From contig CP146203.1 in assembly GCA_039995105.1 (NCBI GenBank), positions 806,001-870,000 of the forward strand: a stretch of DNA of 64,000 nucleotides, in the 5' to 3' direction. Origin of the DNA: Jonesiaceae bacterium BS-20 (GTDB lineage: Bacteria > Actinomycetota > Actinomycetes > Actinomycetales > Cellulomonadaceae). The notes under the pieces were generated by a model. It did not search any database and had not been told where the DNA came from. It was given only the letters and a program-made list of their open reading frames with translations. Below are positions 50,154-52,465 of this stretch, piece after piece (within the stretch, counting starts at the first letter, position 1; the number at the start of each line of letters is the position of its first letter). A program made the position numbers and the translations under genes.

Positions 50154-50519
50154 GGGGGCGATCGGTTTCGACGGTGATCGTGTTTCGAGGGGAAGCGGGC
50201 CGAGGATGTGGGTTTATCTCGTTAACGCTGTCCACAAAACAATAGGTGCAGATACTAAGCGCACCGACTTCGCACTAGCCGCATAAGGTTATTAGCGAGT
50301 CCGTTAGTCCAAGGATGCTACTGCCTTGGGTCCTAACGTCATCTAAGTAGCCACTGCTCATGGCATTTGTCGTTGGTGTCATGGGGACTTTTAGACGACT
50401 GAGCCTGTCAGCAACTTGTCTGTGAGAGTGCTGGGGCCGAGAAACTCTATTAGCAGACTGCGCCCGGAGAAGTCCTGGATTTGCGTCATCGGACCGGGGT
50501 TCGATTCCCCGCGCCTCCA
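50154..50519 (+). ncRNA. ssrA: Transfer-messenger RNA
   Basis: Rescues stalled ribosomes. The 5' acceptor strand GGGGGCG (50154-50160) pairs with CGCCTCC (50512-50518), with one G-U pair. GATCGGTTTCGACGGTGAT follows the 5' end as in other tmRNAs, and the T-arm TTCGATT lies between CGGGG and CCCCG. The tag frame at 50248-50286 reads GCA GAT ACT through GCA TAA, giving ADTKRTDFALAA. The discriminator is A50519 and the next bases are CTT, so the CCA end is not encoded. A terminator hairpin follows at 50615. Confidence 0.96.
50248..50286 (+). CDS. tmRNA proteolysis tag reading frame
   Basis: Twelve codons and a TAA inside ssrA encode ADTKRTDFALAA, the degradation tag added to stalled proteins. 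The LAA end is the signal for ClpXP. It is translated only by template switching on the ribosome and has no start codon. Confidence 0.93.
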   Translation, partial: ADTKRTDFALAA

Positions 50520-50614
50520 CTTGTGTTTATGCAGGTCAGTAGGTAATTGTTAAACAGAAGCTCTGCTTCATACACAAATACGTACACATCCTAAGTGAAC
50601 ACTTTTCAATCTGC

Positions 50615-50657
50615 AAAGCGCTACCCCATATCTAACGGCATGGGGTAGCGCTTTTTT
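50615..50657 (+). terminator. Rho-independent terminator downstream of ssrA
   Basis: Fifteen bases from 50615 (AAAGCGCTACCCCAT) pair with 50640-50654, with a 10-nt loop, and a six-T run follows. It ends the ssrA transcript about 95 nt after the mature 3' end. Confidence 0.93.
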
Positions 50658-50740
50658 GTGCTCTAAAGTCGGTCATATTTTCTTTTCTCCCGGCGCCTCT
50701 GCCTGCTCACGCTCCGCTCAACCGGCAGGATTGAGTTCTT

Positions 50741-50781
50741 AGATACCGCGCGGTGGTATCTCCACACCGAATCCTGTGTGG
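50741..50781. repeat. Two adjacent short hairpins between ssrA and the abi locus
   Basis: AGATACC/GGTATCT (50741-50747 with 50755-50761) is followed directly by CCACAC/GTGTGG (50762-50767 with 50776-50781). There is no open frame here. They may be remnants or part of a transcript leader; no function can be assigned. Confidence 0.35.
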
Positions 50782-50829
50782 GGTGGGAGGATGGGGTGAG
50801 ATGAACGGTCCTTCACCGGCTGACTATCC

Positions 50830-50859
50830 TTGCTTCCACGCAGTGAGTTGAGATAAGGT
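50830..50859 (+). promoter_or_regulatory. Promoter for the abi-associated small RNA
   Basis: TTGCTT (50830-50835) and TAAGGT (50854-50859) are 18 bp apart. A start 7 bases on, at 50866-50867, coincides with the first base of the hairpin RNA. Other mapped-by-eye -10 boxes in this window have the same TANNNT form. Confidence 0.5.
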
Positions 50860-50865
50860 AAAAAA

Positions 50866-50928
50866 TGTTAGCCCCGGTTGTACCGCTGGTCCTTTAGGGA
50901 TTATGTCGCCGGGGCATTGACTTTTTTT
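50866..50928 (+). ncRNA. Compact structured RNA upstream of the Abi/HEPN gene (abiF-RNA-like)
   Basis: A ~63-nt RNA is predicted. GTTA plus GCCCCGG (50867-50877) pair with CCGGGGC and TGAC (50909-50921), with a two-base bulge at 50916-50917, and a seven-T run follows. Inside lie small stems ACC/GGT (50882-50890) and TCCT/GGGA (50890-50900), which compete for T890. The hairpin is thus antitoxin-like RNA and terminator in one, between promoter and toxin gene. From memory, an Rfam family called abiF is defined in just this position; I could not run the model. Confidence 0.7.
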
Positions 50929-50943
50929 AGATAGGTAATCAGA

Positions 50944-51651
50944 GTGGATTCCTGGATTGAAGGTTGGCTAGGCCAACCACGTTTTGCAAAGTATGTTTCA
51001 GCCTGCAACGGTGACAGGCGTCTGGCATTAGAACTGTATGAGTGGAACATCGCTCTGGGACAAGGAATGATGCGCGATATCGCACACTTTGAGGTTGCGT
51101 TGAGGAACGCTTACGACTTAGCGATTACCGAACGGTGGAATGGCAAAACTCATTGGATCCTAGACGCTAACTCCCCTGCGATTGTCCCGATTTGGCGCGT
51201 TAGGAGTCACAACGGCTACAAACGAGGAACTGACGTTAATTACCTGAATCGAAATAGCGTTGATAGGGCGATAAAGAAATGTGGCGGGCCAAATGCTTCC
51301 CCTGGGAAAGTAGTAGCAGAACTCAGCTTCGGATTCTGGAAATCTCTGACCTCAACTTCACACGAGAAAACCCTGTGGGTGCCATTCCTTAACCATGCTT
51401 ACCAGCGCGGAGCACGCAGATCGGAGATTGAGAAAGTAATCTCAACCGTTAATACTGTTCGCAATCGAATCGCTCACCATGAGCCTATGTTCGATAGGGA
51501 CTCATACCCTGCACAAGCCCCCGAACGTGTTCTAGAAGATCTCATGAAGATCTTTTATCAGCTGGCACCTGAAGCGGCGAAACATACAAGTGACACCTCC
51601 ACTTCATTGGAAATACTCGTAACAGACCCGAGGTGTGGTGCGTTGAGCTAA
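50944..51651 (+). CDS. Abi_2/AbiF-like HEPN RNase, putative toxin
   Basis: A 235-residue protein of the abortive-infection Abi_2 type. Near the N-terminus it has YEWNIALGQGMMRDIAHFE and VALRNAY; in the middle GKVVAELSFGFWKSL; and at residues 173-178 RNRIAH, the RxxxxH HEPN ribonuclease motif, followed by HEP. These are the hallmarks of AbiF-like toxins that cut RNA. GTG 50944 is the only sensible start, 15 nt after the RNA's T-run, so toxin mRNA would come from read-through. No integrase or transposase is nearby. Phage defence through an RNA antitoxin is the best inference. Confidence 0.82.
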   Translation: MDSWIEGWLGQPRFAKYVSACNGDRRLALELYEWNIALGQGMMRDIAHFEVALRNAYDLAITERWNGKTHWILDANSPAIVPIWRVRSHNGYKRGTDVNYLNRNSVDRAIKKCGGPNASPGKVVAELSFGFWKSLTSTSHEKTLWVPFLNHAYQRGARRSEIEKVISTVNTVRNRIAHHEPMFDRDSYPAQAPERVLEDLMKIFYQLAPEAAKHTSDTSTSLEILVTDPRCGALS

Positions 51652-51661
51652 ACGTCACAAG

Positions 51662-52024
51662 TCAGATTTCAAACAGGGAACACTTCCGTACTAACTTTGG
51701 TTTCGAAGCACCAGTTTGGGGCATAATCCAGCACGAGGTGTCCAACGTGCCACTGGAAGTTGAGGGTTCGGGTGCGTGGCGAACCTTGAAATGAGTACAT
51801 GCAAAGTCCCTATTGTGGGCGAGCTCTATTAGGTCAAGCTGAAGATTACGCGGCAGCAATGGTTCACCCGCCCCTAATGTCACCGGGGCATACTGAACCC
51901 AAACGTTTTCCAAGAGTTGTGCATCGGCAAACTGCCCGGCTAAGTCTGCGCCGCCCATAATCCAGATATCTTTCCCTTGGCCTGCAGCCAGCGCCTGTTT
52001 GTGTACTTCCGCAACCGGGCCCAT
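51662..52024 (-). pseudogene. 5'-truncated DHFR/RibD-C family reductase
   Basis: The complement keeps only the C-terminal part of a YyaP/RibD-C type dihydrofolate reductase: KDIWIMGGADLAGQFADAQLLENVWVQY is typical (residues ~19-46 of the frame), then PVTLGAGEPLLP and DFACTHFKVR, the usual end. About half of the ~180-residue family length is missing, and an in-frame TAG stands just before the first ATG. The frame then runs ~35 residues past the natural end. I read it as a decayed gene whose 5' part was lost by deletion. Confidence 0.7.
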
Positions 52025-52072
52025 GATCCACTAGCCTGATCAAAGGGCTAGTGACCGGCAAGGAGAGGGGGA

Positions 52073-52144
52073 CCCCAGGTGTGAAGAAACCCGGTGTTTC
52101 CAATAAAAGCGACCAAGGCCATTAGTCGCCTTGGAAACCTGGGG
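52073..52144. repeat. Nested inverted repeats
   Basis: CCCCAGG (52073-52079) faces CCTGGGG (52138-52144); inside, GTTT (52096-52099) faces AAAC (52135-52138); innermost, CCAAGGC (52113-52119) faces GCCTTGG (52128-52134) over 8 nt. The stack could be an RNA fold or the scar of a lost element. No coding sequence lies around it. Confidence 0.4.
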
Positions 52145-52190
52145 CAATACGCAACTGCCTTGCAGATCCAGAAGTACGGTTGAAACCTGA

Positions 52191-52454
52191 GCGCGCAGAC
52201 CAGCCACTGAGCGGCGCAGATTCTTAGGAATCGCAGCACCGAGTGCGTGTGCACCTCAAAACTCTGACGGAAACGTAGGGTCTACTCAGCGGGCAACAGT
52301 CAACCAGGTGGGTCAGGCCGCCGTGGATGAGACCGGAACGTGTGTGGCATTTGGGTTTGGCTCATCTGACTGGAATACCGCGCTCGATGTCCTAGGGTCT
52401 GCTTGCGGCAAACTTGGCCATCCACTGGCTATGTCAATGTTCCCGGGTGGCTGA
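52191..52454 (+). pseudogene. Open fragment without a start codon
   Basis: From 52191 to TGA at 52452-52454 one frame is open and reads protein-like: RRRFLGIAAPSACAPQNSD, later DETGTCVAFGFGSSDW and CGKLGHPLAMSMFPGG. No ATG, GTG or TTG lies in the first third. The beginning looks like a lipoprotein signal that has lost its start, so it may be the remains of a small exported protein. I do not recognise the family. Confidence 0.3.
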
Positions 52455-52465
52455 CCCAATCAGTC

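Follow-up and report, generated by a model that had tools for sequence, protein, structure and literature searches.

A hairpin RNA family lying in both orientations beside Abi_2 HEPN toxin candidates argues for a trans-acting antitoxin in a Jonesiaceae bacterium

Results

Organization of the locus

The DNA analysed here (hereinafter designated the window) is a stretch of 64,000 nucleotides, bases 806001-870000 of the 3.53-Mb one-contig genome of Jonesiaceae bacterium BS-20. The surrounding genes follow the order ftsE-ftsX-M23 peptidase-smpB-ssrA, and the + strand then carries, in turn, ssrA (50154-50522), its terminator hairpin, a promoter-like site, an RNA hairpin, a T run and a gene for a HEPN toxin candidate (Table 1). 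The outer stem of the hairpin is extended by GUUA/UGAC around a 2-nt bulge, the gap between stem and toxin start is 28 nt, and the GTG codon lies 15 nt past the T run. The preliminary description had located the promoter, the hairpin, the seven Ts and the 15-nt distance to the toxin start from the letters alone, and all of these coordinates proved correct when checked on the sequence.

Table 1 Features of the toxin candidate locus, in window coordinates
Feature	Position	Strand	Details
Promoter-like site TTGCTT-N18-TAAGGT	50830-50859	+	TTGCTT 50830-50835, TAAGGT 50854-50859; -10 box ends 11 nt before the stem
Predicted antitoxin RNA, about 60-65 nt, predicted start and end	50866-50930	+	Fold and covariance-model match
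Hairpin core, outer stem GCCCCGG/CCGGGGC	50871-50915	+	Model match, covariation
Hairpin interior: short second helix with U bulge, third helix with loop, conserved internal loops CGCU and AU	50871-50915	+	
ATTGAC and seven Ts (Ts at 50922-50928), intrinsic-terminator-like with the antitoxin hairpin, ahead of the toxin gene	50916-50928	+	
AbiF/Abi_2 HEPN toxin candidate, 235 aa, GTG start	50944-51651	+	Catalytic motif RNRIAH (R173, H178)

The RNA region contains one hairpin only, with no tandem repeat. The preliminary description had reported this single unit correctly but had taken it for an exception, which it is not, as the PbAbiF complex also holds one RNA per monomer (PMC12737573). Directly after the toxin gene lies a truncated RibD_C/dihydrofolate-reductase-like fragment (51662-52024, - strand), a sign of past rearrangement at the site. 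A repeat of the tmRNA 3' end, sought as an integration scar, was not found, nor was any plasmid DNA matching 50523-52465.

The toxin candidate is an AbiF-type HEPN protein

The protein encoded at 50944-51651 is an Abi_2/AbiF-type HEPN protein. It scores 28.4 bits against the Pfam Abi_2 profile (cut-off 25.6), a check that the preliminary description had proposed, and its best match in PADLOC is AbiD. The HEPN RxxxxH motif, recognized at residues 173-178 in that description, is intact as RNRIAH, and an alignment with relatives from Actinomycetota, Bacteroidota and cyanobacteria shows R173, N174, R175, H178, H179 and E180 to be invariant. An AlphaFold model built from a 10-row alignment (pLDDT 82, pTM 0.80) was compared with 350,542 PDB chains using Foldseek; the top match is 8VZ6, 'PbAbiF dimer bound to ncRNA' (probability 1.00, TM 0.52, E 0.14), and all other fold matches have probabilities of 0.08 or lower. 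A sequence search of the PDB with the protein returned no match, the identity to characterised AbiF being too low. Relatives of the toxin were absent from viral contigs, and those in phage records are distant ones only.

The hairpin belongs to an RNA family absent from Rfam

The RNA folds at -24.2 kcal/mol, better than shuffled sequences with a z-score of -2.6 that is modest taken alone. The preliminary description had suggested a search with the Rfam abiF model, and this gave no match at the locus (50600-51100) at gathering or relaxed thresholds, even at E 10, and none among the first 18 relatives. Searching the whole genome with RF03085 (abiF) likewise returned nothing, and 14 control genomes were silent too. 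Since the same RF03085 search scores the known abiF RNA of phiC2, just above threshold, and not the locus, the RNA here is a hairpin family other than the abiF motif of Rfam and absent from that database.

We gathered relatives of the toxin from whole genomes, public contigs and plasmids, and most of these have a shared hairpin a short distance upstream. A covariance model was built from nine RNAs lying beside the toxins of relatives, with the locus and its clade left out. This model matches 50871-50926 on the + strand with 39.6 bits (E 3e-7 over 412 kb) compared with 16.3 bits for the opposite strand of the hairpin, and it matches no other place in the 3.53-Mb genome. The absence of a covariance-model hit, which had been named beforehand as grounds for abandoning the RNA, thus holds for Rfam but is overturned by the nine-locus comparative model.

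Conserved base-pairing in relatives, also named in advance as decisive, is strong. In a MAFFT alignment of the nine sequences, which is independent of the structure, 96% of cells pair and there are 13 double-sided changes, against 4.9±1.8 in shuffles (0 of 500 as high) and 0-2 when the pairing partners are slid. The 55 sequences fitted to the model give an alignment that leans towards the structure; in it we count 121 double-sided changes against 33.9±9.2, with a covariation score of 0.394 against 0.143 (about 0.04 when slid). In a locus on a Rhodococcus plasmid, the internal loops (GAUGACCGCUGG...CCAUGUCGC) are retained on an unrelated outer stem, AGCCG/CGGCU. The hairpin family is common to actinobacterial, Bacteroidota and one betaproteobacterial Abi_2 locus.

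Scanning 149 genomes with the RNA alone yielded 19 matches, 11 beside an Abi_2 gene and 8 without one nearby; simple CCCCGG...CCGGGG terminators explain some weak matches of the model. Three matches (L103:1501-1548, L106:328-377 and L112:1501-1550) possess the conserved loops with no Abi_2 gene within the flanks examined, and could by their sequence be orphan antitoxin RNAs. More than one RNA copy lies near a single toxin locus in L064 (1163-1216 and 1373-1423), L086 and L087. Loci of other Abi_2 clades (L034-L036, L057-L059 and L097) carry a different hairpin, CCCGG-GUC...GAAUA-CCGGG in the toxin sense, seemingly divergent too, which is possibly a further RNA type.

Promoter spacing assigns the RNA strand

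A strict consensus promoter scan found no promoter, and the site at the locus is weak by consensus and not significant alone, its score of 8.1 on the RNA side being little apart from the 5.8 of the opposite-strand flank. Comparison with the relatives shows that the modest stand-alone signals of both fold and promoter are more than chance. When the best sigma-70-type site was scored on each side of the hairpin in 35 loci, the side firing in the RNA direction scored higher in 26 of 27 divergent loci (p = 1e-7) and 7 of 8 tandem loci (p = 0.02). A distance of 10-11 nt separates the end of the -10 box from the stem in 29/35 loci, compared with 1/35 in the opposite direction, and the site at the locus, with its 18-nt spacer and gap of 11, fits the pattern of its relatives exactly. 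Promoter, RNA, strand and stem had thus been assigned correctly in the preliminary description, as judged by the model match on the + strand and the -10 spacing shared with relatives. We also considered that the hairpin of the locus might be the reverse complement of the family motif, reading divergent loci on the toxin strand. This candidate was rejected, as promoter spacing puts the RNA on the locus strand and it is the relatives that are inverted.

Promoters of Bacteroidota differ from the sigma-70 type and have the consensus TAnnTTTG. Reading the Bacteroidota loci by eye on the RNA-sense strand, we find TAnnTTTG shortly before the stem in 7 of 8 and a U-run right after the stem. T-runs after the hairpin also occur in L028 and L029 and are absent in L002, L030 and L032. 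In many divergent loci (L066, L067, L074, L082, L015 and L044), the -35 box of the RNA promoter (TTGACA, TTGGACA) overlaps the start codon of the toxin, so that RNA transcription and the start of toxin translation share bases.

The RNA lies in either orientation to the toxin gene

Among 51 related loci from Actinomycetota and Bacteroidota, the RNA is divergent from the toxin in 41 and tandem with it in 10, the Jonesiaceae locus included. The promoter moves along with the RNA in divergent loci, and annotated plasmid records from Streptomyces, Mycolicibacterium, Gordonia, Hymenobacter and Comamonas are divergent as well. The type III-like tandem layout proposed beforehand therefore stands for the locus and nine relatives but not as the norm of the family.

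Nine of the tandem loci cluster together in a phylogeny of 85 toxins (support 100/99; one change in all bootstrap trees), and the supported clade around them includes divergent loci as well; the match at the tenth, L041, was too short for it to be placed in the tree. The root of the tree is not fixed, and for the tandem layout to have come first the root would have to fall within the tandem branch or on it. The closest counterparts of the tandem RNAs belong to L055, L054 and L003, the divergent loci whose toxins are nearest, and across the loci RNA similarity is correlated with toxin similarity (rho 0.48, 0 of 1000 permutations). Because the tandem loci are one clade and their RNAs resemble the divergent RNAs with the nearest toxins, the pattern is most simply explained by a divergent ancestor whose promoter-RNA unit was inverted once into the tandem layout. 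Both layouts retain the internal loops and helices in the 55 fitted sequences.

Each of the toxin genes of the closest relatives, L028 and L029, contains one in-frame TAG while promoter and RNA are intact, leaving an RNA with no functional toxin. Toxin loss therefore occurs in the clade of the locus, and the system may be decaying in the genus of these two relatives.

Orientation bears on how the RNA could act

The occurrence of one conserved fold in both orientations to the toxin argues for a trans-acting, protein-binding antitoxin of the AbiF/AbiFr type over a leader switch or an antisense RNA, and suggests that the RNA does its work as a molecule apart, not as a switch built into the toxin mRNA. 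The best-surviving alternative is a cis-acting leader, in the manner of an attenuator or riboswitch, with control of read-through into the toxin gene as the sole role of the hairpin: the hairpin sits between promoter and toxin and ends in a T-run, and translation of lactococcal abiD1 is controlled by a structured 5' leader, according to a citation within PMC12373285. A leader switch cannot explain the family, since in 41/51 loci the RNA faces away from the toxin, its promoter having moved too, and the internal loops and helices are conserved in both layouts; we consider it unlikely.

That the hairpin is nothing more than a GC-rich intrinsic terminator beside an unrelated Abi_2 gene was already disfavoured and is very improbable. 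The stem followed by a T-run would fit, as would the simple terminators among the weak matches of the RNA model, but these leave unaccounted for the conserved internal loops, which the Rhodococcus plasmid locus keeps on a different outer stem, as well as three covarying helices, the fixed promoter spacing and the single match in the genome. There is even less to recommend type I antisense pairing with the toxin mRNA: a divergent-locus toxin transcript starting upstream of the RNA gene would presumably hold the complement of the RNA, but such pairing cannot explain the ten tandem loci, because RNA and mRNA there share a strand, with the sequence and fold of the RNA unchanged. Nor is it at all probable that the pair is an RNA-sensing nuclease whose RNA, instead of being a plain antitoxin, recruits or recognizes foreign RNA in a Cas13-like manner; although AbiD/F proteins fall in one clade with Cas13an HEPN domains (PMC12165695) and the apical loop varies between loci, the variation is confined to a paired helix and its loop with no spacer-like variable segment, and the conserved parts fit structural recognition.

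Discussion

Sequence evidence makes it quite probable that the locus encodes a toxin-antitoxin defence system that is type III-like and of the AbiF/AbiFr kind, with a small RNA hairpin most likely restraining an RNA-cutting toxin. The evidence favours the earlier reading of an AbiF-like HEPN protein accompanied by its own promoter-driven, single-unit structured RNA in type III order. In the mechanism we propose, the RNA would be transcribed from about 50866, fold, and bind the toxin dimer so as to block its ribonuclease site. The hairpin and T-run would stop most transcripts, leaving the RNA in excess, as in ToxIN (PMC4147584); a further promoter would hardly fit into the 28 nt that separate stem and start codon, so the toxin would be made by read-through only. 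Phage infection or stress might then upset the RNA supply, whereupon free toxin would cut RNA and halt growth. Ancestrally, the RNA would have had a promoter of its own and been transcribed away from the toxin gene, and a single inversion would have produced the tandem layout.

Neutralisation by direct RNA binding would agree with the orientation independence described above and with what is known of two relatives. The distantly related C. difficile AbiF is a toxin that depends on its HEPN residues, and its RNA neutralises it by binding to it directly, both in cis and in trans (PMC12373285); each monomer of PbAbiF binds one RNA, which blocks the nuclease (PMC12737573). With PbAbiF (PDB 8VZ6), the top fold match, the locus shares the HEPN dimer family and a single RNA unit per protein (PMC12737573), but the locus protein is too distant for a PDB sequence match and is likened to it by fold, not by RNA sequence or orientation. 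The AbiF-RCd22 system of C. difficile (RF03085) likewise combines an Abi_2 protein bearing RxxxxH with an upstream hairpin RNA under its own promoter, a terminator and the toxin gene on one strand (PMC12373285). RCd22 has two copies of the abiF motif of Rfam, whereas the single hairpin at the locus belongs to a different family and goes unmatched by RF03085. ToxIN and AbiQ, the type III systems, resemble the locus in having an RNA antitoxin and the sequence of promoter, RNA, terminator-like element and toxin, but they combine tandem RNA repeats and a ToxN toxin fold in one bicistronic order (PMC4147584, PMC12373285), unlike the HEPN fold and single unit here, and most relatives of the locus are reversed. 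RNA gene and toxin gene follow each other on one strand, as is usual for type III systems, at the locus and its nine tandem relatives and not at the 41 others, and a terminator-like T-run is seen at the locus, L028 and L029; the tandem RNA repeats of that type are lacking at the locus.

More tentatively, the antitoxin RNA and its promoter might form an orientation-free cassette that was inverted once. In the tandem clade the hairpin would then have become the terminator by which toxin read-through is set, and toxin that binds the hairpin as it is being transcribed could act back on the expression of its own gene; we regard this combined scenario as rather doubtful.

Earlier publications describe AbiF with an RNA antitoxin, liken it to type III systems and link such HEPN proteins to Cas13, a link that the preliminary description had also raised (PMC12373285, PMC12737573, PMC12165695). 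The RNA family of this sequence, its divergent layout and its inversion were not found in the literature searched, which did not extend to the central Cell 2025 AbiF paper; the divergent layout may be known already to the authors of that paper.

Cas13 has been proposed to descend from AbiF and its RNA, and the antitoxin-RNA family represented at the locus is a broad one with no entry in Rfam. Through the natural inversion, one kind of RNA and toxin pair can be compared cleanly in two layouts, a single operon and two genes facing opposite ways, which separates neutralisation in trans from control in cis with no need for engineered constructs. The inversion also suggests that type III systems can do without the operon layout by which they are defined.
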